Part shown: positions 19,171 to 54,186 of the stretch, one piece after another
Layout of the letters: the number at the start of each line of letters is the position of its first letter
Position numbering within the stretch: position 1 is the first letter of the stretch
Origin: Owenia fusiformis
Lineage: Eukaryota > Annelida > Polychaeta > Sabellida > Oweniidae
Reading direction: 5' to 3'
Length of the DNA: 64,000 nucleotides
Assembly: GCA_903813345.2 (NCBI GenBank)
Contig: CAIIXF020000002.1
Location: 9,670,650-9,734,649, forward strand
Made by a program: the position numbers and the translations under genes
Notes under the pieces: generated by a model
Told to the model about the DNA's origin: nothing
Databases searched by the model: none
What the model saw: only the letters and a program-made list of their open reading frames with translations

Positions 19171-20363
19171 CTAAATATTATTCTGCTGACCAGTGAATAA
19201 GTCTGCTTGTTGTGGGCTTTTTGGCATGTTCAATAAAGCCAATGTGGACAACTCTAATTCTCTCTGCCTTTCTTCCACAACATGTTCTTGTGTAACAGCT
19301 GGTGTTTGAAAAATGACAACGTGCTTCGATGTACCACGACACGATTTTATAAGGTGCCTTTTCATGTGTTCTTTACGAGAAAATGTACTATCACACTGTT
19401 GGCAACTGAATGGCTTTGGCCCAGTATTGTGTGTTAGCATATGCCGCTTAAGGTGTAGTTTTCGAGTGAATCGCTTGTCACAATCGGGGCAAACTAGGTT
19501 TAGTTCACCAGTATGAGTGGCTTTCACGTGGTATTCTAGGTGGTTTTTAATAAGGAATTTCTTGGGGCATTGATCACACATGAATTCTGGACGTTGATAG
19601 TTTGGGTCATGTCTTGTTAGCGTATGCTTGCGTAATGCGGCATTGGAAGAAAAAAGCTCTGCGCAGAATTCACATTGGATGCATTTAGTAATTTTTTTGT
19701 GTATCCGATTAACGTGATCTTTTAATTTGTCCTGCTGTTTGAAAGCCTTTGGGCAAGCATCACATTTGTATGGTCTCTCATCAGAATGTGCAGTCTTCAT
19801 ATGTTTATTTAGTTGCCTCATCTTGGTAAACTCCTTTCCACATTCCGCACAGACCTTCTTAACTTCCTCTGTAGTTCCCTGAACACTCATTTGAGATTCA
19901 CATGGTGTTTTAACCAGGACTTTACCCTCGTTAGCATTTGAGTCTTTACGCGCAGTGTGAATCAACGAATGCTTCATCAGCGTATCAACTCGTCGGAAAT
20001 CCTTGTTACAGTGTACACATTTATATGGACGCTCGCCAGTGTGAACAAGCTCGTGCCGTTTCAGGTGTTTTTCATATTTGAAACATCTATGGCACTCCAT
20101 GCACCGATGCCCTCCTGGACTTGATGTAATGACATCTCTTGGTACAGGAATAGCACGATCCGTGGGAGCGTTGGGTGAAGCGTTATCCACTGCGTCATGT
20201 GTATCTTCAAGAATTGCCTTCGCATGGAATTCCTTTATATGGTTCTTCATTAAAGATTTCATCTGGAAGTTCTTCGAGCATCTACCACACGTGTAGAGTC
20301 TGGACTTGAAAGAGCCATCAGATTTCAAAATAATCGAGCAAATGCTTTCCACAATATCCATTC
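19171..20363 (-). CDS. Terminal exon with nine C2H2 fingers
   Basis: The exon opens after CTTTCAG, two bases before an ATG, so it needs a phase-1 donor. Nine fingers are visible in order, beginning YTCGRCSKNF, HRCMECHRCF, YKCVHCNKDF, KVCAECGKEF, YKCDACPKAF, IQCEFCAELF, FMCDQCPKKF, LVCPDCDKRF and FSCQQCDSTF. The last ends H-x4-C, a C2HC variant. Fingers 1 and 2, and 3 and 4, are separated by long linkers; finger 2 to 3 has the classic HTGERPY linker. About 60 residues follow the last finger. C2H2 arrays bind DNA in the nucleus; target unknown. The satellite at 20984-22757 lies upstream in the preceding intron. A start at the internal ATG is a less likely alternative. Confidence 0.93.
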
Positions 20364-23300
20364 CTGAAAGCATAATAAAAAAGATTTAAACATTTTTTTT
20401 ATTATTTTTATGTACGTATAGTATGTTTGCTTGAATATTTTTCTGTACGTATAGTATGTTTGCTTGAATAATAATCACAAATTCGTCTTCAATTAGCCTT
20501 TTTAGATTCCTTTGCAGTATTCTCATAAATGTTTTCAATAACAGGATTTTAGGTTTTTAGTTTTCTTGACAAGTACCTTTCATGGCTAATAATTTAGGAC
20601 TTTCTCTCGTATGGATATTAGTGCCACCTAGTGTGTCACCTTTAGAAGTCAAATTCTTCGTGAAAGGGGATAGATAATCGGGCAATCAATTCAAAAGAAT
20701 ATTTAACAAGCTTCTTCTGAAAGGAAAAAAATATGACACTTGGATAAGTGGTAGTACATCACGGATTTGGTAGAACGTTTTAACTGTCCAATGTCTTATC
20801 TTAAAGACATTGGTCTTGGGTTTGCATGTGAATAGACCTTTCTTGTCTAAATAGACCAGATCATCAACAAATCTTGCCAGACTTGACTTGAAAGACGAAC
20901 GAACGAATGGACGGGCAGCTTTTCTATATCCCCTCGAACTTTAGTTCGGGGGATTGCTTTAATACATTCCACTCTATGATTGTATTCATGGGCCTTGGCA
21001 AATGGCCTTTTGTCTGGCACTCTAAAGATTTATACCACACACCACCGTGACATTACAATACAAAGTTTGATATCTATTTTGCTATAGCAGGGTGATTCAT
21101 GAGCCTTGGGAAATGGCCTATCGTCTGGCACTCTAAAGATTTATACCACACACCACCGTGACATTACAATACAAAGTTTGATATCTATTTTGCTATAGCA
21201 GGGTGATTCATGAGCCTTGGGAAATGGCCTATCGTCTGGCACTCTAAAGATTTATACCACACACCACCGTGACATTACAATACAAAGTTTGATATCTATT
21301 TTGCTATAGCAGGGTGATTCATGAGCCTTGGCAAATGGCCTATTGTCTGGCACTCTAAAGATTTATACCACACACCACCGTGACATTACATGTACAATAC
21401 AAAGTTTGATATCAAATTTTGCTATAGCAGGGTGATTCATGGGCCTTGGCAAATGGCCTATTGTCTGGCACTCTAAAGATTTATACCACACACCACCGTG
21501 ACATTACAATACAAAGTTTGATATCTATTTTGCTATAGCAGGGTGATTCATGAGCCTTGGCAAATGGCCTATTGTCTGGCACTCTAAAGATTTATACCAC
21601 ACACCATCGTGACATTACAATACAAAGTTTGATATCTAATTTTGCTATAGCAGGGTGATTCATGAGCCTTGGCAAATGGCCTATTGTCTGGCACTCTAAA
21701 GATTTATACCACACACCACCGTGACATTACAATACAAAGTTTGATATCTATTTTGCTATAGCAGGGTGATTCATGAGCCTTGGCAAATGGCCTATTGTCT
21801 GGCACTCTAAAGATTTATACCACACACCACCGTGACATTACAATACAAAGTTTGATATCAAATTTTGCTATAGCAGGGTGATTCATGGGCCTTGGCAAAT
21901 GGCCTATTGTCTGGCACTCTAAAGATTTATTCCACACACCACGGTGACATTACAATACAAAGTTTGATATCTATTTTGCTATAGCAGGGTGATTCATGAG
22001 CCTTGGGAAATGGCCTATTGTCTGGCACTCTAAAGATTTATACCACACACCACCGTGACATTACAATACAAAGTTTGATATCTATTTTGCTATAGCAGGG
22101 TGATTCATGAGCCTTGGCAAATGTCTACTGTCTGGCACTCTAAAGATTTATACCACACACCATCGTGACATTACAATACAAAGTTTGATATCTAATTTTG
22201 CTATAGCAGGGTGATTCATGAGCCTTGGCAAATGGCCTATTGTCTGGCACTCTAAAGATTTATACCACACACCACCGTGACATTACAATACAAAGTTTGA
22301 TATCTATTTTGCTATAGCAGGGTGATTCATGAGCCTTGGCAAATGGCCTATTGTCTGGCACTCTAAAGATTTATACCACACACCACCGTGACATTACAAT
22401 ACAAAGTTTGATATCAAATTTTGCTATAGCAGGGTGATTCATGGGCCTTGGCAAATGGCCTATTGTCTGGCACTCTAAAGATTTATTCCACACACCACGG
22501 TGACATTACAATACAAAGTTTGATATCTATTTTGCTATAGCAGGGTGATTCATGAGCCTTGGGAAATGGCCTATTGTCTGGCACTCTAAAGATTTATACC
22601 ACACACCACCGTGACATTACAATACAAAGTTTGATATCTATTTTGCTATAGCAGGGTGATTCATGAGCCTTGGCAAATGTCTACTGTCTGGCACTCTAAA
22701 GATTTATACCACACACCACCGTAACATTACAATACAAAGTTTGATATCTAATTTTGGAGATGAATTCTCAAAAATGAGATATGTTTGTGGAGAAACAACT
22801 AAACAGTTTTATGTCAAAAAAGACAACCGAAGATGCCTGGAGAAAAGCCGGAGATCTTCTTTGCAAACGAAGTTGGCCGAGGGTACTACGAATGGGAAGA
22901 GGACGTCTTTAATTGGTCAAAAAGAGAGACTCGGCATTGTCCGTCAGATTGAATCTGCAAAACTCGGTTGTATGTCTTACCTTCAAAAGACTCTTTTGCT
23001 TGATGGTTATATGGAATTCCAAATGTGTAACTTATTGCGTTGAGTTGCTGAGTTGTTAGGTCAGTCAGTTGAGTTAGTTTTATGTCAAAATAGACTTTGT
23101 TTGTTTGATGGTTATATGAAATTCCAAATGTGTAAAATACTTGATTGAGTTGCTGAGTTGTTAGTTGACGTGAAATTTCACTTCTTTATAAAGATGGCAA
23201 TTATTACGAAAGGGCCCAATTGGTTATATCATGACATATGGTAATACATGGCCATGGTTATTATATTTTACCATAGGCTTTCAAGAGTACTAGATGAATG

Positions 23301-26300
23301 TACATGTCTCAGTATTATCTTGAAAAAAATTGAATCCGATTAAAGTATAAAATATGTTTCATCTCATTTAAAATTAAACAAAATTGACCAATAAGAAAGA
23401 TGTCTCTAAATTTTCTCCTCAAATGTTGCATTGTGGCTAATTATTTAGGAACACATTTCAATAAAAATGTAATTTGTGAGAGAACTTAACACTTTCATTT
23501 TTTCCATAATTATGATGAAATCCATTTTGTATTGTATAATCAACATGCATGTACCACATGTATATAATTATATTATTATTTTTGAGTTATTTCTTTATAT
23601 TATACATGAAAAGAACAAAATATTTTTCTTGGAATGTGCGCAGGAAGCATTTTTTGAAAGGCGATACTCATGTAAGAATAATGGGAAGTAACATACCCTT
23701 CTCATCAAAACTGCATATTTATTTGTTCTATTCAGATAATATAGTAATTATAACGACTCCGGGCAGGCCTTGGGGCGAAGTGGTGGCCATAAAATCATTT
23801 ACCAATATGAATTTTTCTACTCTTTTGAAAGCCCATGTAAATATGATAATTGATTCACTACTCTCAGAGTCAGATGTGGAGAGAACTTCCCCGATAAATA
23901 CATTTGCAAACAAATTTCTCTTGAGTAAATATACTTTACTTTCTCTTTGTTAAAGTAACACTATGTTTATTTCAATTCCATATGTTGTACAATATCAGAT
24001 TATTACTTAATTTTAAAGTAACAATATGTTTATTCCATATGTTGTACAATATCAGATTATTACTTAATTTTAAAGTAACAATATGTTTATTTCAATTTCA
24101 TATGTTGTACAATATCAGATTATTACTTAATCTTAAAGTAACAATATGTTTATTTCAATTTCATATGTTGTACAATATCAGATTATTACTTAATCTTAAA
24201 GTAACAATATGTTTATTTCAATTTCATATGTTGTACAATATCAGATCTACAAACAGAAGAGGTAATGTGTTTAATTTTCATGTGCATATTTACAACTATA
24301 ATATTGAGACAATTCATTAGCCACATTTTATTTAACATTTCATATCTAATAACTAGAAATCTGATCCTACATGTACATTATACAAGGGGCTATCCAGATA
24401 TTTTGATTAAAATACTCTTGCACCATTTTAAATCACATTATTCACTTTGAGAGATTTGTATCAAAGTAAATAATGGATTAATCAACAGGTTTCCAGGATA
24501 CTGTTGTCCTTGTCGCCATATCAGCCATAAATCAGCTTTAATGTAACAAGAATACCAATATATTATAAATATATTACGATACATGTTGCATGTAGGCATA
24601 TGATTTCAGGTAAAATACAATGAAATAACGATTTTAAAGACATTTGTGAAACATGTATTTTTCATTCAAGAGAGCTACATATTACTTTACTATTCACACT
24701 TTGCATGCTTAGTTTGCAGATGTTTTAAGAGATTTCCACGATCTTTAAAAGCAGCTTGGCACAAGGAACAAATATGTGGTCGTTCATTTGAATGTACTAA
24801 TAGATGGCGCTTGAGGGAGCCCAATATATTGAATTGTTTGGAACAATATTCACACTGGTATTCTTTGTCAAGGACAGGTTGGTGAATTTTTTTCCTATGT
24901 TTCTTCATGTTGCCTTTATCGCTAAATCTTCTTGGACACTGATCACATGCAAATGGTTTTTCCCCAGTGTGGCTTCTTTTATGACGTTCTAATGCATAGA
25001 CTGACGGGAAACTTTTCCAACATTCTGAACATGGATAACTCGGGATGTTCAATTGGTTATTATCGTGTTTTGCTCTGACGTGCTTCAGCATATTACCTTT
25101 ATCAGAAAAGTCTTTTTGACAATGAGCACAAGTGAATGGCTTTTCCCCTGTGTGTTTCCTTATATGGCGTTTTAAACACCACGTATTCTGACATCGTTGG
25201 TTGCACCATGGACACAAATATCTTAACTGGGTGTATCTGTTATCAGGGAAACCATTTTGATAATCTGAGATTGATTTGTCTTCCAGGTTAAGTGTACCAG
25301 ATTCATTGTTTTCTGTTTTAACATGCATTTCCTCAGTCATAGTGTTAAAATAGTTGTTTTCATCATTTTGCTCTGTTTTCGTAAAACCACTCAATTCCGA
25401 CATGTCGTGACTGGGGAAGTTATTGTGGCAAAATTCAGGATTACTGTCACCAAAATCAGGATTATCTTGGGTGGCAAGATCTGTAAATACAAAACAAAAG
25501 GATGATAAAAATTTGAATTTTAAATATTTAAAACAACTGTAATAGTTAAACAAAATTATTGAGAAATGACCAAAACTCTATCATCCTTGTGTTTTGTCTT
25601 TGTGGAAATTTAAAGTTTGTCTTTTACAGACATATTTTTAGAGAAAACCAATTTACCATCAACTTTTGAGACGACGCTGAACCACAAATGTCCAGCATCT
25701 ATTTCAAAATTTCCTGCTACAACTGACAATTGAAGTCTTATGTATGGACGTAAGACAAACTATTCTATAGTGAGTTTTAACTAAAATATCTGTGATTTTA
25801 ATAGAATATGAATACTGGAGGAACATTCATTCTTTTTATCTTCGTGTAAATAAAAGTTATTCTATTTTAGAAACACAAAATCATATACATATACACCTGT
25901 ACTAAGAAAGCTCAATTTCTTGGCAACAATACACCATTTTAGGGGGGACCCTGGCTTGATCATTAGGGAGGTTTTTTAAAAATGTGTACGTGAATGTGTA
26001 GAATTATGGTCCTCTGTGGATTAGTTCTCCAATCTGTTTACTTGGGCGATTGAGTATACAGGTATACGGAAAATAATTGTAATTAAGTTCCTGGAAAAGG
26101 TAATTGACAACGGGACAGTATTCCCTGGTGGTCAGAATATTACATGCTCACCTACAGGTTCTGTTACTAACACATACATGTAACTTACCTTCCCTATTGT
26201 TTAATTTAATTAGTTTGAATTGAAAAATGTAAGCATTAATATTTTTCTATATTTCATTTCTATTTTTTGTAATATTTTGAGGAGTCAATTGCCTCATGGC

Positions 26301-29300
26301 TGGAATGCCCACAACAGTGTCAAGATATAGGGAGAGAAAATATTCTAGCATAGTAAGAGCATTCAATATACATTTAGCAAGTGTATCACAGGCCTTGAGT
26401 TTATTGATTTTCTCCCTATATCATGACATGTATAAATGCCCATGTCATATATTCCTTACATTTTCCTATTGTGTTTTCTTTCGTGTGTTAACATGTTGTC
26501 AAGCCTGCTGAATTTCCTCATACATAGGTTACACTGGAATCTTTTTTCCCCAGTATGGCAACGTCTATGATATTCCAGGTGTTGTTTCCGTTTAAATGAT
26601 TTCAAACAAATGTCACAATGGAATTTTCTATCAAGATTTGAAGGTTCGGATGATTTGTGCCAATTCATGACACCTTGGTTTGGTTCAAAGGGCACTGAAC
26701 TAGAGGCCATTGGAGCCAGTTTTGCCTTAGATGCCATTGTACTAAACTTTGAAGGACAATACATTTGTTCAAATGAACCACTATGAGGGATTGTTCTAGG
26801 TTCCCATATTGTGGCCTCCTCCTGGCCAGTCACTAATAAATTATAGCCATTCCCTGTGAGTTCTGACTTAATTTGTTCATGGGGCATTAAATTATTTCCA
26901 TAGTCATTTTTGTCATCATATTTACATTCAATAATTGCTTGATGACTGTCAATAGTTGATGTAATATCTTGATTTTTCTTTTCAGCTGATAAAAGTTGAT
27001 TCTCTTCTGCTAGTTGCGAATACATACTGTTATTGCCATTACCTGAAAATACAGGGTATCCAATAAGTTCTGTTGCCAAGTAAAAAATCTCTGTATGAAT
27101 AATTCATATTACCAGTGTCACAGTTGCACCATTCAAAAACTGTTCAAACAACAGCTACACGAAGAGATTGGACCATTTTTGTTAGTTACCATATCCATAT
27201 AGAAATATTCCAATCTCTTAATATAGGGTGAACGATAAAATATTTAGATTTGAAAGTACAATGGCAGAGAACTAGATGGATACCCTGTATAATTTACTCT
27301 TAACTTACATAATGTTCATAATCAGTTATTGATAGCCGAGTTCTAAATTCAAATATTTTGGACAGTTCTGGCTAACTTTTCGTACATGAGCAACCTAATC
27401 ACACATCAGATTGATAACTGTTGCTTGGCACACATTACTCATCCTCCGATCACAGGGCTTCAAAATCCAGAATATATTCTTCCTTTTGACCCCCTGCGAT
27501 AAGCAGTTAACATTTCCCCGATTAAGAACTCGCAATCTGATTGGCTGTCCCAACACTGCGACAGAAATCATGTATAAGTCATTGCGCATAATTAGATCAC
27601 ATGATTCAGTTAAACCGGGCACTTCCAAATTGGTTATAGCAGCGGGAAGAAAGAGGTACGAATTCTGGACACCTGCTTAGGAGGATGACATTACTAGATT
27701 TCAGAGCTTTTAATTGGATCATTACCATTCATCTATTAATGAAATGTCTGAGCAATGTTTGGAAGGGATTTTACACATAAAAAATCAACTGTTAGTGAAT
27801 GATAATAATGTAAAATTATATCTGTGATTTTAATGAGTTATGACCAAAAAGCATCCATAAAAACTTGAAATCAAGCCATCTTTCTGCTTAGAAATGCTCC
27901 AAAAGTGATGTTGATTTTTTTTCATTATTTATTTTCAAATTAAGCTAATTTTTGAACAGGGAGTCCTAGTGGTCTCTTTAACATTGATAATGAACAAAAA
28001 CAGTTATGCTGATGTATATAGTCTTTCGCCAACATATGACTTTCACTTTTATGAATGAATTATTTAACTTATAACTGTGTGAAAACTATGGGATACTTAA
28101 AAGTCAACAATAGGTGTGATGTTACCTCCTATTGACAGTTTTCTTAATATTAACCCAAAGCATTAATTATAAACAGATTAATTCACACCTTAGAGTTAAC
28201 ATGAGTTTAACAGGTGTATAGGTACAATGGATTTTTCATGCAGTTCCCTGCTGTAAAATTAAGATTGAATGTCTCTGTCATTGATACATTTTCGCATTTG
28301 GGGCTAGCAAATTTTGTCCTCACTTTCGATTCCACAGGCTGTTTTTACTGAATCACCCTATATTATTTTGAAGAATTTTGCAACCATTAATGAAATTCTC
28401 ACTTAATTAATTTTATTGGTTATGTTTTGCGCATTTTGCAATCTATTATCCTTCACTTCTATTGCACCTTTATGATAAAGGTTGATGGGCTGATTGTATG
28501 TTTAATTGTTTTTCATGCTCAATATTTCTTTCAAATGGTGCTTTTGTTTTATGATCAAATATAAGTATTTTCTTACCATCATCTGGATCTTTTGTGCTGA
28601 CAGTTTTATCCTTAGGGGTGTCTTTGTATTCAGTAGTGTCTTCCTCATTAGCCCAATTTGAACTATCATCATAGTTATCCTCATTATCGCCTACATCAGC
28701 ACTATCGAGGGTTATTGAATCTTCTGTTTCAATCTTAATTACAACACTGTCTAATTTTTTGTGCTGCTTTGAGCTTGAAGCAGTTTCATCATCCAAACTT
28801 CTTTTTCGTGTTTTTTTACCTAAAAATGCAAAACTTCCTACTTATCATATACTCTTAAGTTCTCATATTTAAATATTTCGATAGCATGAATGAAAAATAG
28901 AGATTGAATAATCAGATGATTAGAGAATTCAACCAAATATTTTGACAAGTAACGCAATAACATAATAAACAAATAATACATGTACCTTGTAATTTTTGGG
29001 GGCTAGTGTTGAAAGACGATAATGGTGTAATATCTCTAGGAGGTTCCTCACATATAACACCATCCTCTAATAATGAAAATGTTTGACTTGGTTCATAATG
29101 TGAGCCTCCATCAATTTCATATCCTAGTGGTTGCGACTCTGCTGACTTGAAGACTGTCCTGTGCATTTTCACGATAATATCCTTAGCAATGTCTTCACCT
29201 TGCGAAATACAAATGATGCCATCGATCTCAAGGGATTTACAAAATGAGAGCTGTTGAGTACACAGCTTGAGAACAGCATCTTGGATCGTCTGTGTGAGTA

Positions 29301-29319
29301 CTTGGCTTGATGAACTCAT
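19171..29319 (-). CDS. Zinc-finger locus with alternative 3' finger cassettes (minus copy)
   Basis: Constant exons are 29319-28986 (N-terminal module, ends phase 1) and 28819-28577 (acidic, phase 1 to phase 1). Three candidate terminal exons follow, each starting with an AG acceptor in phase 1 and ending in its own stop: 27042-26456 (2 fingers), 25480-24690 (6 fingers) and 20363-19171 (9 fingers). Joining the constant exons to each gives intact proteins of 387, 455 and 589 aa. The first, gene-proximal finger exons do not need to be spliced together: each is terminal. This is the layout of alternative-terminal-exon regulators such as Drosophila lola. The products are probably nuclear DNA-binding regulators sharing one N-terminal module. 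Alternative splicing is inferred from phase compatibility only. Separate genes with lost 5' exons is the alternative. Confidence 0.75.
20364..20983. other. Intron of the zinc-finger locus
   Basis: Holds a 33-bp direct duplication (TGTACGTATAGTATGTTTGC and following) at about 20409-20470. It also holds the dispersed TATATCCCC...TTCGGGGG motif at 20893-20950. No exon was seen. Confidence 0.5.
20984..22757. repeat. 111-bp satellite array, 16 copies, with higher-order structure
   Basis: The unit begins GATTCATGAGCCTTGGCAAA and ends TTTTGCTATAGCAGGGT. Variant positions (GAGCC/GGGCC, TATCTATTTT/TATCAAATTTT/TATCTAATTTT, TTTATTCC, AAATGTCTACTG) recur in the same order in units 7-11 and 12-16. This gives a five-unit block repeated twice (about 21656-22211 and 22212-22767). 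It is inside the intron between finger cassettes. Confidence 0.95.
22758..23951. other. Intron of the zinc-finger locus, nothing recognised
   Basis: A plus-strand open frame running from the satellite to 23043 has no known domain and starts in repeat sequence. A short duplication (GATGGTTATATG(G/A)AATTCC) occurs near 23000 and 23110. No exon supported. Confidence 0.45.
23952..24246. repeat. 63-bp minisatellite, about 4.7 copies
   Basis: The unit is AAAGTAACAATATGTTTATT, TCAATTTCATATGTTGTACA, ATATCAGATTATTACTTAAT, CTT. One unit has a short deletion. The period is a multiple of three, so an open frame runs through by chance. Confidence 0.92.
24247..24689. other. 3' flank of the six-finger cassette
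   Basis: AT-rich, probably the 3' untranslated region of the cassette exon that ends at 24690. No other feature was seen. Confidence 0.4.
24690..25480 (-). CDS. Terminal exon with six C2H2 fingers
   Basis: The exon opens after TTGTATTTACAG in phase 1. A leader of about 100 residues, acidic and rich in Asn, Glu and Asp, precedes six fingers: YLCPWCNQRC, FTCAHCQKDF, YPCSECWKSF, FACDQCPRRF, YQCEYCSKQF and HICSLCQAAF. Classic HTGEKPF linkers join fingers 1-2 and 3-4, and HSNERPH joins 5-6. Alternate fingers share SDKGNM-type helices, suggesting internal two-finger duplication. The stop follows the last finger by two residues. Predicted nuclear DNA-binding cassette of the locus; target unknown. 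Confidence 0.93.
25481..26455. other. Intron or 3' flank between finger cassettes
   Basis: AT-rich. No additional finger motif (Cys-x2-Cys ... His-x3-5-His) was seen in any frame. Confidence 0.45.
26456..27042 (-). CDS. Terminal exon with two C2H2 fingers (minus locus)
   Basis: The exon opens after TGTATTTTCAG in phase 1. A leader of about 140 residues, polar and rich in Asn, Ser and Glu, comes first. Two adjacent fingers follow, FHCDICLKSF...HRRCH and FQCNLCMRKF...HERKH, joined by an HTGEKRF linker. The stop comes three residues after the second finger. This is the cassette nearest the constant exons of its locus. Its two-finger C-terminal layout resembles the plus-strand cassette at 41047-41474. 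Confidence 0.92.
27043..28576. other. Intron between acidic exon and first finger cassette
   Basis: No further finger exon was seen. Open frames at 27395-27680 on both strands have no domain. Read-through past the 28577 donor would add about 35 residues to a stop at 28470, a possible short isoform. Confidence 0.45.
28577..28819 (-). CDS. Acidic linker exon of the minus zinc-finger locus
   Basis: The exon runs from a TTTTTAG acceptor to a GTAAGA donor. It is 243 nt, phase 1 at both ends, so it can be included or skipped without changing frame. It starts with a basic patch (KKTRKRSLDDE) that could be a nuclear localisation signal. Next comes VVIKIETEDSITLDSADVG, whose IKIE fits a sumoylation consensus, then an Asp/Glu/Asn-rich stretch with SSNW. 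The plus-strand exon 33884-34192 has the same order: a basic region, VKRE, ITLD, acidic residues and PSW. Confidence 0.85.
28986..29319 (-). CDS. N-terminal exon of the minus zinc-finger locus
   Basis: Starts at ATG 29319, shortly after a TATTTCAG acceptor at 29331, so a non-coding exon lies further upstream. The first 60 residues contain LTQTIQDAVLKLCTQ, KSLEIDGIICIS and IIVKMHRT. They align with the plus-strand paralogue at 33310. I do not recognise this module: it is not BTB, KRAB, ZAD or SCAN by any motif I can see. A divergent tail with HYEPSQT follows, and the exon ends at a GTACAT donor in phase 1. Start choice is by alignment with the paralogue. Confidence 0.85.
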
Positions 29320-29331
29320 AGTTTGCAGTAC

Positions 29332-30650
29332 CTGAAATATGCCAAAAAATTGGAATGTGTTGCATAAATGTTTGTTTTTCAGAATTTGATGGTTGCAGTG
29401 ATAGTTTTTATGCTTTTTACTTACATACATAACGTATATGTGGTATATGTGTGTAATTTGTACTTTCTTTTGAATACGATGATATAGATTTCATAACGTA
29501 TACCTACATTTAGTTCCCTTTAGCTCCAAAATAATGGAAAGGAAGGGAATACTTCCCGATCCTCTTATGAAATCTAGCGGTTCGTTCAGTGCAATGCAAT
29601 ATATCACATTCCAATTTTTTGATTTCACAAAATGCTCTAAATCTCGGAATTATGATTGTTTCACAGATAAAATACACAATGCAATTGATAAGAACATGAA
29701 ATTACTATCATATTGCATCAGATATTTCCTTATTTGTCTTCACATGACGTTCGTTACGACAAAAAGATTTATTTGTGGCGTGTCACAGCTCTCTAAATTG
29801 AAGGTAACCTAATTGAAAAAGTTGGGACAAAAGAATTTGTCTTTTGTTTGATAATAAGCTGGGTATGTATTTAGGATAAATATTGAGAGAATGCATACCA
29901 ATTGAGAGATTCTTTTTCAGACTTCGATATATAACTCAATGCCAGTGCATTTCGATAAATTGGACTCCAGATGTTAAATCAATTAATTTGGTTGTGTCAG
30001 TGTCAATGAATGGTTCATGACAGAATCTTACTCGAGTCTCTAGCTTACAGCTAGACGAAACTTCATTGATTTCGTATGTACTGTGCTACACGCACCTACA
30101 CGCACCTAGAACTCATTTTTAATAAATTTTATAAATATTTTTAAGAATATTAATCATATTTAGGATGAAGCGTTGCTTGTCTGGATTTAGATATTTCAAA
30201 ATTTCATTTCGGAGTTTCAACACATGGTGAAATTTTCTCGCTGTAGCTAAAAATGGCTTCCGGTTCTGGACGTGAATAACATTTGAAATTATTCTCGCTT
30301 AAAGAAATGAAATATAACAATAGATTCAGACGGGGATGTGAGCTGGTGTTCTTCAAATCTATACATCAAGGTATATTTCATATTATTATGCCATATTTAC
30401 TGTGCGTGTGACACAATGATTTACGATATTTATAATACTAAGGCAGCTCAATCTTCCTCCTCAAAGCCGGAATATAGAGAAGGCTTTGGACCGAAGTAAA
30501 CAGAATCCATGATGAATGTGAATATTGACAACTGTGACATCACATTGTTTATTAGCCAAACCACGAGCAATCCAAGAAATGCAAATGCTTTGCATATAAA
30601 TTTATTTTTCATACTCTACTGTGGTCTCATGATTGCATATTTTTGGGATG
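29332..30650. promoter_or_regulatory. Divergent interval between the two zinc-finger loci (minus side)
   Basis: Must hold the promoter and 5' non-coding exon of the minus locus. No TATA box or CpG-rich core stands out by eye. A plus-strand open frame at 29534-29812 has no recognisable domain. Confidence 0.4.
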
Positions 30651-30654
30651 TATT

Positions 30655-30977
30655 TGTTACGGTATCTGGGTGGTGGGTTTTGGAGGGTTAATGTGATATC
30701 ATCAGCTTGACCTCTGAACCCTGACTCACTTGCTAGTATTGCTAACTTCCCACTCTGTTCCCTTGCCATATATGGTGAGTCACTTGCCATATATGGCTAA
30801 GACACTTGATACATCAGAGAGGGTATATAACTGACATCACGCATTCTAATCAGAGAGTCACTCCATTTCAATCATCGAACGAACATCTCCTGTTGGATCT
30901 CTTGGATTGTGTTAGAAACGTTATTTCAATATCTGGATATATAAACCTCGCACAAACACGAACCGAAACGCGCAACA
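30655..30977 (+). repeat. Left LTR (323 bp)
   Basis: TGTTACGG...CAACA, with a TATA-like box at about 30825. Paired with 32525-32847. Confidence 0.92.
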
Positions 30978-31059
30978 TTGGGGGCCAAGCCGAATCAAAG
31001 CCAAGCTGTATTGAAAGAGCAACAGTAATTTTGTAAGTTAATTTTGTATTTTGGTCACT

Positions 31060-31413
31060 TTAATAAGCATTTTTGGAAATCATGGCACAATCAGATCGGG
31101 ATCTGTCAAGAGCATCAATGAGTGATATTTCAGTAGATTGTGTTGCGACTGTTGTAAAGGCTGCTGCTGTATTAAAAGGAACATGCAACGGCGATGTAGT
31201 CACTACTGATGGCAATGTTATTGCAGGTGGTAAGGAAAAAGACACAGAACCAGCTGTAGTAGGGTTAGACTTTATAACATCCCGAAGGGACATTACCTCA
31301 GCCGCCAGCTCCTCTTTTTCCCTAATCACATCCTGCAATTCTTCCCTGTAGCGTTCAGCTTTCTGCAGGCGCACCTTATTCAATGCCTCCCCATACATTC
31401 CAGTATAATCCAA
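31060..31413 (-). CDS. Antisense open frame inside the LTR element
   Basis: 117 codons opposite to the direction suggested by the primer-binding site and polypurine tract. The first 50 residues are strongly helical and charged (RYREELQDVIREKEELAAEV), as in a coiled coil; the rest is rich in Thr, Ser and Val. It is not a recognisable retroviral-type protein. It may be captured host sequence or chance. Confidence 0.3.
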   Translation of the reverse strand: MDYTGMYGEALNKVRLQKAERYREELQDVIREKEELAAEVMSLRDVIKSNPTTAGSVSFSLPPAITLPSVVTTSPLHVPFNTAAAFTTVATQSTEISLIDALDRSRSDCAMISKNAY

Positions 31414-32524
31414 AGTTAATTAGATTTGATGTATTTATATCAAGAATATCAACCACTGTTTGATGCGAGATTTTCAGTGTCAGTTAAAATTAAAACATAT
31501 GTTATGATAACGGTTAGGTAAAATTGTTGTTATATAATACTAAAAATACATGTACAGTCAAGCAGTTAATTACTAATCATATTATTAGATATTAAGATTA
31601 ATTATCAATTAATTTTTTGAAGTATTGAATTTATTATGTCAATTAAGAATATGGTTATTGAGATTTTAAATATTATAGTATTATTGTAAATAACTGTGTA
31701 TTCATACTGTTATACAAGGGAATATCTTGTCTACTCCAGAAATCCAAAATAAGGGCTCTGCCAAAGCATTGCAGAAGTGATTTCTTGAGTAGGCTAGTTT
31801 AATAACCTAAAAACCGACCAGTGGAAATATTTATCAGGCAGCATTTTAGCCTATTTCAACAGATTTGTATATATGTGTATATTATATTATAACTTAGTTA
31901 TTACAATTAGAATGTTATTTGCATGTTGAAATTAATTATTTCAACTTTTATTCTATTTTGTGTAGAGGTTTAACTATATTGCCATGATATGTTAAATGGA
32001 GTATATTCTTTTATCTTTAAGAAATGGTTTGTAAGATTGATGCTGTAAGCTAGAAGTGTATAAATATTTCTATTTACGCCACAAAGATGGCATGGCAGTA
32101 CATTTTAGTGCCTTTCAGTGTATAAAGATCCACTACCTCAAATATCTCTTAAGTACTGTAATATTCGTGGTTTTCTTTGAAAAGACTACCTTAAGGGTGG
32201 TGGTATGGCTTATGAAATTGATTGATTATGAAGTGAAAATATCAAGTAAATCTGTTTTCTTTTGAAGTTAATAATTTTGAATGTGCATGATTAAAATTGT
32301 GCAAGATTACTGTAGTTCACACTTATGCATAATATACATAATTAAGATTGTGCAATATTAATGATATTTATATTTATTCATGTTATAACATGTATGTTTA
32401 TTGGAACTTGTTTCAAAATATAAATAAACTTTGGATTTGAATTCTGATGAAATGCGGTGATGGAGGTTATATGCCCTCTGGTTCAGTTGACAGGAGTCAA
32501 CAGTGTCTTGTCCGTGGGGGGTAG

Positions 32525-32847
32525 TGTTACGGTATCTGGGTGGTGGGTTTTGGAGGGTTAATGTGATATCATCAGCTTGACCTCTGAACCCTGACTCACT
32601 TGCTAGTATTGCTAACTTCCCACTCTGTTCCCTTGCCATATATGGTGAGTCACTTGCCATATATGGCTAAGACACTTGATACATCAGAGAGGGTATATAA
32701 CTGACATCACGCATTCTAATCAGAGAGTCACTCCATTTCAATCATCGAACGAACATCTCCTGTTGGATCTCTTGGATTGTGTTAGAAACGTTATTTCAAT
32801 ATCTGGATATATAAACCTCGCACAAACACGAACCGAAACGCACAACA
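32525..32847 (+). repeat. Right LTR (323 bp)
   Basis: Nearly identical to the left LTR. Preceded by the purine run GTGGGGGGTAG and followed by the TATT target duplication. Confidence 0.92.
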
Positions 32848-33309
32848 TATTGACACTCAATCCAAATGAGGTTGATTTTAGTCAGATCTAATTCTAGCAA
32901 TGCCCATGGACCTCTTTCCCCATTATGAAATCGTCATTCTTATATTATATCTGATGTAACAATAGCTTCTTCTTTATCCAATTTACTAAAACAATAATTT
33001 TTGGATGTAAAATTCATAAATGTAAAAAGTTGTGTTTCTTGTCTGTTTATCATATTAGAATCAAATATATGACCTCATTTTGTATTCTGGCCATTGCCAA
33101 AGATGATTTCACAATTTCGGTCTTTTAACAATGAACAGAATAAAATTTTCGGTCATATATTAGGCCATAAATCATAAAATCTTGGTTTTTATTCCTTACT
33201 TAGAATATTACAATATAATATAATGTTTCTTTTTAGGCCGAATAATCCAGATGACACGATTCTAGTAGCCTACAGCCAAATTAACAACTCCTACTGTACT
33301 GAAATCACA

Positions 33310-33706
33310 ATGGGTTCTACAAATGCGATGTTAACGCAAATCATCCAGGATGCAATTCTGAAACTTTGCACACAGAATATTATATTCCACAAATCGCTTG
33401 AAATAGATGGTATAATCTGTATATCACATAGCGAGGAAGATAAAGACATGGTCATCAAAATGCATCGAACAATTGTTAAACCTGAAAATTCAAACACTCA
33501 TTGGAATGACAGTTCTCTGCATAATATCCATGTTCAAAATACACCATTGGTATATGCTAAATCTCCAAGAATAACTGAGAATGTACAACATTATGAACCG
33601 CCAAAAGTTAATTTAATTCCCATCGCAACAGCAGAAATCCCAGGTGGTCAAGTTGCAAACGCTGCAAAGTTAACTATTAAAGGCAATGTAGTTAATGATA
33701 TTAAAG
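33310..33706 (+). CDS. N-terminal exon of the plus zinc-finger locus
   Basis: Follows a TTTCTTTTTAG acceptor at 33236, with a short 5' leader before ATG 33310. The first 60 residues (LTQIIQDAILKLCTQ, KSLEIDGIICIS, MVIKMHRT) match the minus-locus module. The region after it is divergent but keeps HYEPPK. It ends at a GTAATT donor in phase 1, as in the paralogue. An in-frame upstream ATG at 33223 lies before the acceptor and is not used in this model. Confidence 0.85.
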
Positions 33707-36700
33707 GTAATTTAGCTATGTAGTTTAAATTTTCGAATAGTCTCATTGAATTAAAACTCTACATTAAATATTTTACTTATTAATTTGTTAAGTGTACTAA
33801 TCTTACTAAGAGTCTTATATTATTGTTGCAGCTATCTTTCTTCATTTGATCTGATATCATTATTTTGTTTCAACACTTTTCAGAAGAAACTTCAGAAAAA
33901 ACTCAATTAAAGAAATCTTCAAAAGACAACAAACGACCAATTAGCGAATCTTCTACAACACACTCCCCCAATAAACAGCCACGCCTTGATGATGACCCCC
34001 AATCTTCACCAAATGCCCCACCCCCATTAGCAGAGGACAGTATAGTTAATGTGAAGAGAGAGGTTGAGGAAGAGATTACACTTGATTATGACAATGGGGC
34101 AGTTGATGGGGCTGAGGAGGGACAAGATGAGCCTAGCTGGCTGGACAGTACTCCTTTGAAAATATCTCCCTCAGGAGCAGCTTCAAGTACAGGTGGGTGG
34201 ACAACTTGAAGTGTACTAAAACCTGTGCAAATGGGACTTCCTGAATTTGCCAAATATTGTTCCTTGTAGATGGGTATAGAAAGGGTTCATAATCACAGCC
34301 AATCTGCAACAGTACCATACGGTACCGTTCTGGAAATGGCACTGTATGGTACAGTGAAATATGATACCATACGGTACTGTAGACTGAAACAGTACCGTAC
34401 GGTAGCATACTCTTAATGTACCGTACGGTAGCATACTCTTAATGTATCGTACGGTGCCATACTCTTAATGTATAGTACGGTACCATGATTTTAGAGTGTG
34501 GATTGGGAGTGTCAATATGACTTTGCTCTTTGCAAAACAGAGGGAAGTTCCATCAGACAGGTTTTATTGCCTTATATAGTGTAATGTCGTAATATGTTTA
34601 TAAGTGTTAAAAACAAAACGAAATGTTGAGATTTAGGAATTTTCGATGTATTCATACATCTTCATCAGGTTAATTGATTATCATTTTCATACAATTATGA
34701 CATCACAATATCCAGGTACGGGTAAAATTTAAATTACAATTACAAGAATTAATTATGATCGTGGCCCTCAACATTTTGTTTAGTATAATGTCAATAAACG
34801 ATATGATAAAAATGATTGTGATATGTCTCAGATGCAAATTCTTTTTAATCATCTTGAACTATGTGGAAGTAATCACTTATTCCAACATATTTAAAAAATA
34901 GATTTGATATTGATTATAATTACAAATTCCCAGAATCATTTGGATCTTAATTTTTTAAATAATCAAAACTGGGTTCTGTGTGGGAAATACATAACACACT
35001 TACAGAAAACCTTTGGTGCCTTACGAAACCAATGGTCATTTTTTAATTTAAATACATGAGAATTTGGATATATTTAATAATATTTATGTTGAAAATACCC
35101 AATACTAATGATTATTTCTGTAACATCCTTGGTCTGTGTTTAATTTCTGTAACAACCTTGGTCTGTGTTTAATATTTTTCATATCTCCCATATATGTCCC
35201 CAACATTTGATTTTAGACACTACATGTAGCTATTAAATAATGTTTACGTGTATCTCCTGTCTCCCCAGCATTAGATCAATTGAGCACTGAAAATGAACCC
35301 ATGACACCCATAAGATCAATTTATACCCTATCGAATACTGAACCATCCAGCCAAGCAGTTACAAAAAGGACTGTAAAAAAACTTGGAAGACCACTGTGTA
35401 TATTTACAAAAGGAACTTGAATAGGTGTGATGAGCACTGTAGCTGATATTGCAATTGGACATAGAATAAGAGAGAACAGTGGTTCTAGGATCTTAAGCCA
35501 CCTGTATTTCAAACAACTTTCAAAGCTTATTATGATGAAATTGCTAAACTTGGACGTTAGTATATTGAAGCCCATGAACTGATGTCTATTCCATATGTAG
35601 GAAAGATTGTCAGAATTTTACAAACTGCATGTAGTAGGGACACTGACATGGACTCTATTGTCCCATTTCATACATGTTGAAACATTATTGTGCTTAAGAA
35701 AGGACTCAAAAGACCACTTAACAAATGGCCTTCATTTTCTGGTTTCAGCGGGAGTGACGTATGGGAATAATTCCATATACGAAGGGGGAACATTTACCGT
35801 GTTTGAATCTGAAGTGAAAAATGTGCAGAGGATGCCAGACCAAGAGGATACCATGAAGGCATCATTGAACTGCAAGATTTGCAAGAAAGAATTTGGATAT
35901 GCACATGTGTTGAAAGTACATATGCGGACTCATACTGGAGAGAAGCCATTTGTTTGCAAGTATTGTAATAAATGTTTCAAAACGAAACAAAATTGTGAAA
36001 CCCATATAAGGATTCATACTGGCGAGAAACCCTTCCAATGTAACATATGTATGCGCTTGTTTAACCAGCTTGGATCTTTACAACGTCATAAGGAGCTGAA
36101 GCATATGCGTAAAAATTCCTTCCCACCAACAATGGTGACTCCAATGGCGCCATCTGTTTAACACAATTATTAGTAAAATGGAATCGCGAGATCTCATTGT
36201 CCTGGTTGATTGATCTGTGACTGCATATTGACTTTGACTGTACCATTTTAAATCTCAACTTATTTCAAGATAACGCAGAACTGCCATGACATTTTTGATT
36301 GAAAGTGATTTTGTTTTAGCCATTTTTAGGCAATCATATTACCCTTTTTTATCTTGAAAGATTGTGGATATTAAGCATGAAGGTATTTTCTTTAAAGGAA
36401 TCTACTCTTTCATATACATTTACAGATGTGTGTGATATTTATTTATGCATAACTCAGTGTTGACAGTTACAGTTATAGATGAAGCTATTGTACAACAACT
36501 AAAGATATTGTTCAAATGTTGACAGTTCTTGAAAAATGAATTTTTGAAAGGTTAAATCAACATTTTCACCAAAGAAATTTTCATAACTAATGATATGTGG
36601 ACAATAAACATTATCCCTTGAGTACTCAGATATCCCTTGAGTACTCAGATATCCCTTGAGTACTCAGATTTTTTCCATTCAGAAATAAGTTTCCTTACAG

Positions 36701-39700
36701 TATGTGTTCACCGATGATTGTTTTTTGGGGGATGTGGGGATTTTGGGGATTTTAACAATATTTTAGGGAACTGCTTGGTCATTTAAAGATGCAGTCTAAC
36801 TATATATATTGAGTTACTGAAATACTGTGTGAGGGATCATCTCAAAAAATTGCACTGAACTTTAAGTGCGAATCATTGACTGCTGGACCGCTCATTCACC
36901 CACCATTGTTTTTGAAACAAACCTTTTTGAAAATACATATTCAAAATAAAAAGTCAGTATCAAGTGAAGGAAATGACCGTTACCTTCCCATTTAAGATGG
37001 CCATTACCTTCGCTTAATACTGACCAGTGATATAGAACAATAGTTTAAGTAAATGAAGCGGTGTCACACCATCCACCAATTTAACTGAACTATAAGGACA
37101 TAGAGTTCAGTGTGAAACACACAAGGTGGACCTTTTTTCCATGTGTTATTTACTCTCAAAATCTGAAGGTCTACAGATAGTTATTGAAAATGAAAATCTG
37201 CCAAATAACAATCCACAATTGTAACTTTAAGTTTGTTAATTTATATATTTTTATACTGATATGTTGATTAAACATGTGTGTTTACATGAAAAATATACCA
37301 TTTAGGGAGCTTCCATGATATAAAAAATGACCATGAAAATTACCATTAATTGTCAAGTCTTGTGCTTAATTGTCAGAATTTGTAACTATGGATTTATTGT
37401 TCTTTATTATTAACCTCTTGACTACCTGGAGTAACGTCACCTGAGAAATGACCTTGAAACCCAGAGGGACGAGAAAAAAATGTTCACTAAAATTGCTCTT
37501 ATTTGAACAATTTTCATGCAATTAACATGAAAATTGTTTTTAAATGTGAAGAAATGATCTCTGCCATCTAATTTTACTAAGTTGAGTATCTAAATTTGTA
37601 TAAGTATGTAGTAAAATGTCAAAAGGTGGCAAAAATGAAAGATTCTCTGGTTTCAATCACTTTTAGAGCCTGGGATTCAAGAGGTTAAGATGATATTATT
37701 GTCAAAAGGACCATGAATGGACCGATTTATATTCAACCACAAGCCTAGTATATGGACCAGTGCTGTAACCTATTTGCTGAACTTCTTTCGTTAAGTACTT
37801 GCATAAAATTTAAGTTAAAAGACCAAACTCTTAAATACAGTAAAATCATCAAATGGGGCTCATGTACAAGCCATTCACTTTTAAATGACATGTCTAACTG
37901 TACGTATATTGATTGCTTTACATTAAAGATCCAAGTACTGGATTAGTCATATATAAAGGGATAGGTCCCACAATAGATTGCCAAATGTATAATGCTATAT
38001 ACTTACATAGACTATGTGTAACAATGTCATATATTGAATGTACAGTACACATGTATATTATGAAATGTTGTGACAGTATATATTATATCTTATTCTTTGG
38101 ATCCGTCAGTTTTAAGACCAGTTTTAATTGACTGAGCATTTAAGGAATTGATTTTATGCAACTTTTTGAAATAGCATTTTTTTACAATTAGACGATGGTG
38201 GTCCAAATAAAGGATTGTACAAATATATGACTCTCTATTTTCGGCTCAAGTTGTAATTTCATTTATGTGTGGTCTGTAGTTTCAGATTGAATCATTACAA
38301 ATATCAATTTTGGACCACCCTGTAACTTTTGATAGAAATTTGTGAGAAATGTGCATGTTCTGACTGACTATTATACTGACATGGTATAAATGTAACTTCC
38401 ATGTATCTTGTTCTGTTATGTGAAATGGAGGGAAAATGATCCATTTAAAACAACAAAACCCAACTGAATATCAGTTACTAGTTTATAACTAGTCATATAT
38501 GATCTGTTAAGTGAACTTCTGTTTTATATAGTCATGTATATAAATTGGCTTTTAGTATTGTAAGTAGCTCTAATGTTATGTGTCAAAAGGGGTATAACCA
38601 GGGGCAGATTCATGGATGGGATGCACCCGCTAATTGTCAACTTAAAAATCATACAAGCTAAAGTTTTTTTGTGTGAGAATTCCAACATACAAAGTTCTGA
38701 ATCTGCCCTTGATGATACCATATATAGTAATAGCTATTCTCTCGTTAAATCTCTTTTAAAAAGAGGAATGAAGTGTATAATAATTATGATGTACTGAAAT
38801 TAGATTTCACCCCAGGGGCTGGCTCAAAAATCTGAAGCTGATGTTTAGGCAAGAAAAAGCAAAAACAGGGGGTTTAGAGATGAGCCTCAGTTTAACTTGG
38901 CAAAATTTTGGCATTGATTTTTGACTCAGTCCCTATGTATGTACCAGATACATGTATTAGTAGTAATGTTTTTGTTGCAGTATTTTTAGGGTTCTTATGT
39001 GTAAAAGTCAAATATAATTTGGCAACCTTTATTTTGCTACCTCCTTAGAGGAGAAACCTACAGGGTGTCCAAAAAATTGAACCGAGACGAGACAGTCATG
39101 GAATAACTCAGTGAGTGATATAAGGACAGACATTTTAATTATCATGTGAATGCTTCACTAGATAACTCTGTTGACCTTTACAGAAAAGCTCATTTTTGTA
39201 CCATCCATTTTCCATCTTTTTAATTCCATACAGTTTACATCAGTCATGATAGAGATCATTTTGAGCATGTCATAATTTCTCAAGAAGCAATTTACCAATT
39301 CCTATGAATGTTTAAATGCTAATTGGAAAATGAATTTTTATCATGCGAAAAATTAAGCTTTTTGATGAGAGAAAAAAGAGTAATTTCATTTTCACTTTGG
39401 TACAATTTTTCGGACACCCTGTACAACAGTTATAATGACTTTCAGTGGAGGAGTGAATTTAGAGCCTCCATTGAAGTATTATTACGTATTGGATGATAGT
39501 ACTTTGCTCCAAATCACCCACACAGGCCCATAGCCAGTTTTTGCTAAGGGGGTTCACTTTTCTAGAAACTCCAAGGGGTTCACTTTTGACAAGTTTGACT
39601 TGAAATCACTTGAAAAGTGTTCCAATGGTGAAAAACCTCAAAATTTTGAGGGGGGAGCCCGAGCCAAACTCCCCTGACTATGGGCCTGCCACAGTAGAAT

Positions 39701-41474
39701 GAATGCCTCAATTCAATTGAAGCTTTTACCAGAGAGCATACCAGAAACTTCGAAACAGCATTTTTGGCTACCTCCCGAGTGGAGAAACCATATTCAGTTA
39801 TATTCAGTAAATATCTTTCTATTCATGTATTCAATTTTAATGAAAGAGTAAAAGTTCTACAGGGTTCTAATTTAGGGAGAGGATGGACCAATTGAGCTTA
39901 TTGGACCCAACCCTTTTTAGGAGAACACATTTTTGACATGAACTTTTAAGGTAAAGAAATTTAAGGCTCTGGTGATATGGTTGAGAGTTGCTGACTTCTG
40001 AAATACTGTTAGTCTGAAATAAGCAAATTTTGAGATGTTTAAGAAAAAAATCTGGTTTGTTTGAAGTATATAACAAAAGGGTCACCCCCTCTCCATAGTC
40101 TCCAAAGGTCCACCCTCTGTCTAGTACCTGGTAGAGTAAATCGTCCATAATTTCACATTGTAGGTGTTTGTTTGACTGGTTTATATTTGTCACTCACTAA
40201 ATTTGTGTATACTGCATAGTATTGTGTGAGGTGCTATTTTAGTTAGCAATATAGATTTTTAGATCTTTATTTTTTATGTGCTATATTTACTTATATATGT
40301 ATACAATACTGAATAAACTTAGAAATCCAAAATAACTGTGTTCTGTAATTCAATGTGTTAAGGTGGCTTAACACCCTCAAATTGATATTCTATTAAATTC
40401 TCATGACATGGTTTATGTTTCAAAATCAAACTAAAATAGTCAAATTCAGGACAAAAAACTCCACAAAGTAACAAAGCCCAACATAGTACTGCATTAAAAC
40501 ATAGAAATGGATTCTGATATGAGCTTATTTACAAGGCAGCTAGATAAGTTCCTAATGTTTTTTTCTGGTTTGTATCTTGGAGTGAATGAATAAAATGGGG
40601 TTACGCTCATCATTATGGGTCTTGTGCATAAAGATTCCCATTTTCAATATTACAACTCATTTTTGGCTTTTTGAATTTTAGATCAAATCTCAAAAAGTTT
40701 TAATCAGTGTGTATATCCCATAATATTGTGGTCGCATAAATTAGGTCATGCTGCAAAATATTGTGTGCAGTGAAACCAATAATTAAAAAATATGCATACT
40801 GCTCGAAATGAATATTTTTACTGCACTTCTTCAAAATGCTATATTATTATTGTCTCGTGCTGTTGGGTGTGATCTGTCTGGGCGGGTGCCACACGGGGCA
40901 TGCTCGCTTAATTACTTGGCAGCTGTTTTGAATTTTCTAATCAAAAGTGTGATTCATAATGTATCGACTATGTGTTTTGTTCATACAGCATCCAACACAT
41001 AAAGTTGATGTTTCAACCATTTACAGAATTAATTGGCACTTTTCAGTTCAAGCTGCAAAAACTATAAAACCTGGGGAGGCCCTTCCATCATGGTATTGGA
41101 TGCAAGGGGAAGTGTCCAGCATTGCTGATTCTTTAACACAGGACCCTGCATCACTTAGCAACAGAAGACAACAATCAGAGACATCCAGCTATGAGCACCA
41201 CCTATCATCCACACAGACATTCAACGACCCTATTATATCATTCAACGAATCAATGAATAAGACGAGTACATCTACAAAACAAGTCAAAGAAAAGAAAAAA
41301 GTGTCCTGTCATATTTGTCTGAAACAGTTTGGCAAAAATCAGCACTTGGGCTATCATATGAATATTCATACTGGAGAGAGGCCATTTGTATGTGATATAT
41401 GCAAGGAGTCTTTTGGACATCCATATAAGCTGTCAAAGCACAAAGCCAAGTTTCATCCTCAGCCTGATTTATAA
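33310..41474 (+). CDS. Zinc-finger locus with alternative 3' cassettes (plus copy)
   Basis: Constant exons are 33310-33706 (ends phase 1) and 33884-34192 (phase 1 to phase 1). Candidate terminal exons with phase-1 AG acceptors and their own stops are 35269-35420 (short, no finger, probably decayed), 35749-36161 (3 fingers) and 41047-41474 (2 fingers). Joined products are 285, 372 and 377 aa with no frame break. It mirrors the minus locus at 19171-29319, head to head, with the same exon order and phases, so the pair arose by inverted duplication. The product is inferred to be a nuclear regulator whose DNA specificity is chosen by terminal-exon splicing. Transcript evidence is lacking. Confidence 0.75.
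33884..34192 (+). CDS. Acidic linker exon of the plus zinc-finger locus
   Basis: 309 nt between TTTTCAG and a GTGGGT donor, phase 1 at both ends. A Lys-rich start (LKKSSKDNKRP) is followed by SPNKQPRLDDD, a Pro-rich stretch, then IVNVKREVEEEITLDYDN. VKRE fits a sumoylation consensus and aligns with IKIE in the minus-locus exon. An acidic tail ends EPSWLDSTP. Reading through the donor adds only a few residues before a stop, giving a possible finger-less isoform. Confidence 0.85.
34311..34487. repeat. Palindrome-bearing minisatellite
   Basis: Repeats of TACCGTACGGTA-type palindromes. The second half is a 26-bp tandem unit, CCGTACGGTAGCATACTCTT then AATGTA. It lies in an intron of the plus zinc-finger locus, about 120 bp after the acidic exon. 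Confidence 0.85.
34600..34670 (-). mobile_element. Penelope-like element 3' end (candidate) with hammerhead-like core
   Basis: Read on the minus strand: CCTGATGA, a stem GATGTAT-GA-ATACATC, then GAAA, then AAATCTCAACATTTCG and GTTTTTAACACTTATAA. CTGATGA + stem + GAAA is the core of hammerhead ribozymes, which are known from Penelope-like retroelement ends. One extra A separates CTGATGA from the stem. The tail is shared with 7277-7311. No reverse transcriptase is nearby. Confidence 0.5.
34671..35268. other. Intron of the plus zinc-finger locus
   Basis: AT-rich, with a direct repeat of TAACA(T/A)CCTTGGTCTGTGTT near 35130-35170. No exon was seen. Confidence 0.4.
35269..35420 (+). pseudogene. 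Short non-finger terminal exon, probably decayed
   Basis: Starts after a strong CTGTCTCCCCAG acceptor in phase 1, compatible with the acidic exon. It codes about 50 residues (LDQLSTENEPMTPIRS..., KRTVKKLGRPL) before TGA at 35418. Past the stop, the same frame (VADIAIGHRIRENSG) and then, after a shift, another frame (FQTTFKAYYDEIAKLGR, YIEAHELMSIPYVGK) still look protein-like to about 35690. This suggests a longer cassette broken by a stop and a frameshift. A genuine short isoform is the alternative. No zinc finger or other known domain is seen. Confidence 0.5.
35749..36161 (+). CDS. Terminal exon with three C2H2 fingers (plus locus)
   Basis: Opens after TTTTCTGGTTTCAG in phase 1. A leader of about 40 residues precedes three contiguous fingers: LNCKICKKEF...HMRTH, FVCKYCNKCF...HIRIH and FQCNICMRLF...HKELKH. 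They are joined by two classic HTGEKPF linkers. About 20 residues follow to the TAA. Contiguous fingers with canonical linkers indicate DNA binding over about 9-10 bp; target unknown. Confidence 0.92.
36162..37409. other. 3' flank of the three-finger cassette and intron
   Basis: Contains a 19-bp tandem triplication (TATCCCTTGAGTACTCAGA) at about 36613-36670. No exon recognised. Confidence 0.5.
37410..37688 (+). mobile_element. piggyBac-type MITE, copy 2
   Basis: TTAA flanks at 37410-37413 and 37685-37688. The ends CCTCTTGACTACCTGG and, mirrored, CCTCTTGAATCCCAGG match copy 1 at 18471-18774 in opposite orientation. No protein is encoded. Confidence 0.85.
37689..38598. other. Intron, nothing recognised
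   Basis: AT-rich DNA in the plus zinc-finger locus without finger motifs. Confidence 0.4.
38599..38711. mobile_element. Short hAT-like MITE candidate (113 bp)
   Basis: The ends CAGGGGCAGATTCA and, mirrored, CAAGGGCAGATTCA match at 13 of 14 positions. No clear target duplication is seen. Confidence 0.55.
39061..39421. mobile_element. Mariner-type MITE, 361 bp
   Basis: Termini CAGGGTGTCCAAAAAATTG and, mirrored, CAGGGTGTCCGAAAAATTG; further bases to about 26 also match. TA dinucleotides flank both ends (39059-39060, 39422-39423), as for Tc1/mariner elements. No transposase. Confidence 0.88.
39523..39688. mobile_element. Short TIR element with CAGGCCCATAG ends (166 bp)
   Basis: CAGGCCCATAGCCAG at the left is mirrored by CAGGCCCATAGTCAG at the right. 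CCACA flanks both sides. Inside are repeats of GGGGTTCACTTTT. Non-coding. Confidence 0.75.
39689..41046. other. Intron before the last finger cassette
   Basis: No exon recognised. The minus-strand open frame at 39867-40193 has no domain or splice support. Confidence 0.4.
41047..41474 (+). CDS. Terminal exon with two C2H2 fingers (plus locus)
   Basis: Opens after GGCACTTTTCAG in phase 1; a nearby alternative AG at 41026 would give phase 2 and does not fit. A Ser/Thr-rich leader of about 85 residues comes first. Two fingers follow, VSCHICLKQF...HMNIH and FVCDICKESF...HKAKFH, with an HTGERPF linker. The TAA comes six residues after the last His. It is convergent with SDAD1, whose last exon ends about 650 bp downstream. 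Confidence 0.9.
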
Positions 41475-54149: not shown

Positions 54150-54186
54150 CTCAATAGAAAGAGGAGGGAAAACCCCATGATTCAAT

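Follow-up and report, generated by a model that had tools for sequence, protein, structure and literature searches.

The DNA analysed here is a window of 64,000 nucleotides from the annelid Owenia fusiformis (contig CAIIXF020000002.1, positions 9,670,650 to 9,734,649), and it holds two zinc-finger loci arranged head to head, one on each strand. We consider it quite probable that each locus is a single transcription-factor gene which makes several proteins by means of alternative last exons, and that the two are members of a family with about 31 loci. The logic is that of Drosophila lola, but the front module differs from BTB and was previously undescribed. For the plus locus, public protein records show one constant part with alternative ends, and the sequence of the minus locus suggests the same use of its three cassettes.

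Both loci start with two constant exons, A and B, which can be joined to terminal exons with their own stops (Table 1). The constant exons have GT donors, both constant parts end in phase 1 and all six terminal exons are preceded by AG. Joining the minus constant part to the exons beginning at 27042, 25480 and 20363 gives open frames of 387, 455 and 589 amino acids up to the stop, and joining the plus constant part to those at 35269, 35749 and 41047 gives open frames of 285, 372 and 377 amino acids. In this way the phase-1 donors, the acceptors, the stops and the six joined lengths claimed in the initial annotation were all reproduced. The mirror-image exon order and phases that it described were confirmed too and extend to similar intron sizes, with A–B introns of 166 bp (minus) and 177 bp (plus) and the cassettes at 27042 and 35749 lying 1,534 bp and 1,556 bp away from their constant parts. 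In the minus locus an AG acceptor for an intron in the 5' untranslated region lies 12 bases upstream of the ATG. Pfam models for C2H2 fingers match all five finger cassettes at E <= 0.001; for 27042 and 41047 the PF00096 score is under the curated cut-off and that of zf-C2H2_6 above its own. The predicted finger numbers (2, 6 and 9 on the minus strand, 3 and 2 on the plus strand) hold provided that the C2HC finger of m3 is counted, as the strict pattern finds 8 fingers there and 9 are reached once this last finger is included. Within m2 (24690-25480) fingers 2, 4 and 6 are mutually alike (5-8 of 12 core residues); agreement is 2-4 of 12 among the odd fingers and 0-3 in odd-even pairs, and growth of this six-finger cassette by a two-finger unit is suggested.

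Table 1: Exons of the two head-to-head zinc-finger loci (positions within the window).
Feature	Position	Strand	Description
Constant exon A, minus locus	29319-28986	minus	ATG and N-terminal module of ~55 amino acids; residues 1-111 including linker
Constant exon B, minus locus	28819-28577	minus	linker, basic stretch and SUMO-site/SIM-like motif IKIETEDSITLD; phase-1 donor ATG/GTAAGA
Constant exon A, plus locus	33310-33706	plus	ATG and N-terminal module; matches N-terminal part of P0016/P0017 exactly
Constant exon B, plus locus	33884-34192	plus	linker with VKREVEEEITLD motif; phase-1 donor CAG/GTGGGT; same in P0016/P0017
Cassette m1	26456-27042	minus	2 C2H2 fingers, own stop; AATAAA 51 bases past stop
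Cassette m2	24690-25480	minus	6 C2H2 fingers; ATTAAA at +148
Cassette m3	19171-20363	minus	9 fingers (8 C2H2 and a last C2HC); 8.2 kb from constant part
Candidate fingerless end	35269-35423	plus	joined protein 285 amino acids; acceptor good
Cassette p1	35749-36161	plus	3 C2H2 fingers; joined protein is P0016, 372 amino acids
Cassette p2	41047-41474	plus	2 C2H2 fingers; joined protein is P0017, 377 amino acids

Independent evidence comes from two public O. fusiformis proteins, P0016 and P0017, which are letter-identical over their full length to the plus-locus joins to 35749 and 41047. The annotation of this species is described as built from RNA-seq assemblies, curated splice junctions, Augustus and PASA, with RNA-seq support given for 31,678 of 31,903 transcripts (PMC9977687, section 18). 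For the 285-amino-acid join and the three minus joins no identical record was present among 29 proteins, and six proteins found later are different ones. The claim of a constant part with interchangeable ends thus stands for the plus locus and is extended to two further family N-termini, whereas the minus joins and the one to 35269 are unmatched. Acceptors were scored with a rough model built for this analysis, which we use as supporting evidence only since the 41047 site lies outside its top five by score and yet is confirmed by P0017. In all three minus cassettes the phase-1 AG is the top-scoring acceptor (a chance of 1 in 27 if phases are equal), with that of m3 scoring highest of the whole set, and the phase-1 site is also the best AG for 35749, giving four of the five finger cassettes tested.

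Three homology searches gave 35 proteins carrying the module, of which 34 are labelled O. fusiformis and one, P0023, is unlabelled and lies on a contig of 20,064 bases. All but one of the 34 are listed on a chromosome-scale contig of 35,751,742 bases, P0034 being listed on one of 39,792,004. The minus constant part alone as query retrieved 15 Owenia proteins at E <= 0.001. Four protein pairs have an exact N-terminus in common (235, 253, 262 and 279 amino acids), and the collection contains 31 different N-termini, 30 of them labelled Owenia. Including the minus locus we estimate about 31 loci in O. fusiformis, a count that is approximate as some proteins are partial and genomic positions are those listed with the records. 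A scan of the window with the hidden Markov model (HMM) profile of the family, in which both window modules are themselves rows, found exactly two modules, with E 1.8e-32 for the plus and E 7.3e-27 for the minus locus.

Two different ends occur in three of the four pairs with a common N-terminus. P0004 and P0005 share their first 262 amino acids and continue into a fingerless and a 2-finger end, respectively; P0014 and P0015 share 253 and then differ. P0008 and P0009 share 279, P0008 being a partial record that stops where P0009 continues. As P0004 shows neither a finger nor any other Pfam match, its pairing with P0005 may be taken as a precedent for the fingerless exon at 35269. For this exon no AATAAA or ATTAAA was found until 35967, within the next cassette, and the 35749 exon may instead use 35269 as a further acceptor upstream. 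Among the 35 family proteins zf-C2H2_4 is present in 19 and zf-C2H2 in 18 (E <= 0.01). P0028 carries a homeodomain (E 3.6e-20) behind the same N-terminal module, with an engrailed fusion as best PDB match followed by PDX1, P0035 combines fingers with a CUT domain barely over the cut-off (25.6 vs 24.4 bits), and in P0020 a BEN match stays under it (18.7 vs 23.2 bits). The window pair is part of a large family with C2H2, homeodomain, CUT and possibly BEN ends.

The module itself comprises about 55 amino acids. A model of residues 1-62 of the plus locus, predicted from 32 alignment rows, consists of one helix (3-23) and a hairpin (strands 29-38 and 47-56), with a mean predicted local distance difference test score (pLDDT) of 87.9 and a predicted template-modelling score of 0.66; in four of five module models pLDDT reached 84.8-87.9, in the fifth 59.1. 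Comparison of the model with the PDB gave no convincing match, which does not prove a new fold. Pfam gave no match to the minus constant part (E <= 0.1) and two chance-level matches to the plus constant part, both under cut-off. The proposed difference from BTB is borne out, as no BTB match was found in either constant part (E <= 0.1) nor among the 24 Pfam families matched by the 35 family proteins (E <= 0.01). Literature searches, some of them using Owenia as a term, turned up no paper on this system, in line with the earlier remark that no description of it was known. It is conceivable, if somewhat doubtful, that other spiralians widely share a domain family to which the module belongs in diverged form and which was overlooked here, as the search method depends on shared 5-residue words and P0023, on its unlabelled 20-kb ENA contig, may stem from another species; this is opposed by profile searches with 14 and 24 rows, which gave no match labelled as another organism at E <= 0.001, and by the lack of a Pfam family above cut-off in both constant parts.

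Between module and fingers lies a linker for which a low-confidence model shows no regular structure. It contains a composite motif of a SUMO-site-like psi-K-x-E, a hydrophobic stretch resembling a SUMO-interaction motif (SIM) and acidic residues, which would be a putative SUMO site followed by a putative SIM and may confer SUMO-dependent control. With a loose pattern, written after the alignment had been inspected, the motif was found in 20 of 32 distinct constant parts compared to a shuffled mean of 0.44, one of the 20 matches (P0025) sitting elsewhere. The isoform-duplicate rows P0004, P0008, P0014, P0016 and P0017 had been left out before counting, those of P0016/P0017 being replaced by the plus constant part of the window. 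The minus constant part is intact and carries the family motifs.

According to the model we propose, the constant two-exon front of module and linker would be spliced in phase 1 to one terminal exon with its own stop. The predicted fingers presumably bind DNA, and the choice of finger exon would change the DNA target, with module and linker holding partner and regulatory contacts constant. Through the common module, isoforms and paralogues might then contact one another or a shared partner, as happens through BTB. In lola, BTB-encoding common exons are described as joined to about 20 alternative C-terminal ends, the unique terminal exons mostly having C2H2 or C2HC fingers and three isoforms being fingerless (PMC1947980). 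The Owenia loci likewise join common N-terminal exons to unique terminal exons, but differ from lola in having no BTB match, three candidate ends per locus instead of about 20, and about 31 loci. BTB is reported to let TTK-group and lola proteins meet partners (PMC11426971, PMC1947980), and the TTK type is described as confined to arthropods, apart from a few plant cases ascribed to lateral transfer, having been sought in annelids and not found (PMC11426971). Unlike the TTK-type BTB factors (ttk, br, mod(mdg4) and lola), the Owenia proteins have a module of about 55 amino acids that folds, as predicted, into helix and hairpin.

A second comparison is offered by the KRAB-, SCAN- and ZAD-zinc-finger expansions, in which numerous clustered C2H2 genes of a single lineage carry a short N-terminal module, and in this respect the Owenia family is alike. 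To our knowledge the finger exon of such genes is usually fixed per gene and their ends are neither homeodomain nor CUT; the Owenia constant parts also differ in showing no Pfam match to KRAB, SCAN or ZAD (E <= 0.1). Whether the annelid family is an independently evolved counterpart of the arthropod TTK-BTB factors is in our view evenly balanced. In that case a new small interaction module without kinship to BTB would have spread to about 31 loci, most of them on a single chromosome, and phase-1 alternative last exons as well as gene-level shuffling would have brought it together with C2H2, homeodomain, CUT and BEN-type ends, giving many DNA-binding specificities one partner- and SUMO-dependent front. 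Nowhere is the sharing of one interaction domain by many DNA-binding ends of a gene better known than in the arthropod BTB factors, and a second, unrelated invention in a spiralian would, if true, mean that this architecture is favoured by evolution and is not a quirk of BTB; an as yet unnamed protein domain would also have been described. Two of the plus isoforms are already public, as unnamed proteins. The family may furthermore bear on the C2H2 repertoire of O. fusiformis, for which 454 C2H2 genes expressed at the gastrula are given vs 235 in Capitella, and 178 vs 187 in an embryonic co-regulated cluster (PMC12550047).

Several points weigh against reading each locus as one gene with alternative last exons. 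Public protein records suggest that P0016 and P0017 come from one gene, and the annotation is partly ab initio. The minus-locus proteins of 387, 455 and 589 amino acids are absent from the homology-search results, including those of a profile holding their own module. On the functional side, the module is a putative domain for homo- or heterotypic interaction, and the rows of the motif count are paralogues and hence not independent. The first polyadenylation hexamer (AATAAA or ATTAAA) follows the stop at +51 for 27042, +148 for 25480, +442 for 35749 and +164 for 41047, but with a background of about 1.2 per kb for each hexamer, such sites less than 450 bases past the stop in four of six ends say little, and at most the +51 site of 27042 is notable. 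For m3 neither hexamer occurs within 1.5 kb past the stop, the first being at +1622.

As m3 also lies 8.2 kb off and carries an in-frame ATG near its acceptor, it could be a separate gene. We regard it as rather unlikely that the minus finger exons, chiefly this distant 9-finger one, are separate genes with their own 5' exons and that alternative ends are confined to the plus locus. The missing records of all three minus joined proteins in the searched protein set and the satellite array contained in the 8.2-kb gap speak for separate genes, whereas the best acceptor of all three minus cassettes is in phase with the constant donor, exon order and intron sizes mirror those of the plus locus, and over 64 amino acids the fingers of m27042 share 50% identity with the end of P0005, where it follows a family constant part. 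The satellite (20984-22756) lies in the long intron that separates cassettes 25480 and 20363 and consists of units of about 111 bp, with shifted copies 93-98% identical. In P0015 one finger end seems to be cut mid-finger and spliced into a second end, and serial use may for this reason occur in the family. That the finger exons are spliced serially into one larger protein is nevertheless very improbable, as all window cassettes carry stops of their own, and it is there that P0016 and P0017 finish.

We also considered how the two loci are related. The initial annotation had them duplicated by inversion, which was neither favoured nor rejected: a tree constrained to unite the two window loci is as likely as the free one (p-AU, from the approximately unbiased test, 0.516), and relatives of both constant parts are recorded on the same contig. 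Of the 29 branches in the tree of 32 constant parts, from which P0004, P0008, P0014, P0016 and P0017 are omitted, 3 are starred, and several ends are long. Local duplication of an entire multi-cassette locus in inverted orientation would agree with the mirror-image order and phases, the similar intron sizes and the fingers of m27042 and p35749, which are 53% identical over 58 amino acids. We nevertheless give it the smaller share of belief, as the plus module is closer to that of P0001 (73% identity) than to the minus module (62%), no starred set unites the two loci, and the best cassette match of m27042 is P0005 and none of the plus cassettes. In a family with about 31 loci, two of them could also have come to lie head to head by chance.

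A young element of the long terminal repeat type (30655-32847) takes up over half of the 4.0-kb spacer between the two loci; it has 324-bp direct repeats of 99.7% identity, TG...CA ends, 4-bp TATT flanks and a few short open frames, the longest of which (31060-31419, minus) has no Pfam match. Most of both loci is flanked by an inverted pair of about 300 bp (18471-18774 and 37410-37688, 81% identical), probably a dispersed element that might be misread as a relic of inversion.

Elsewhere in the window, a frame at 44384-44671 (minus) has a weak SDA1-domain match under cut-off (E 4.5e-4) and may be an exon from an SDA1-like gene next to the pair. Another frame at 2782-3186 with a weak match to reverse-transcriptase RNase H, also under cut-off (E 0.0018), is perhaps a retroelement remnant. 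Large palindromic inverted repeats of mobile-element-like appearance are located at 54182-55143 and 12238-12766, being 81% and 77% self-complementary, respectively.

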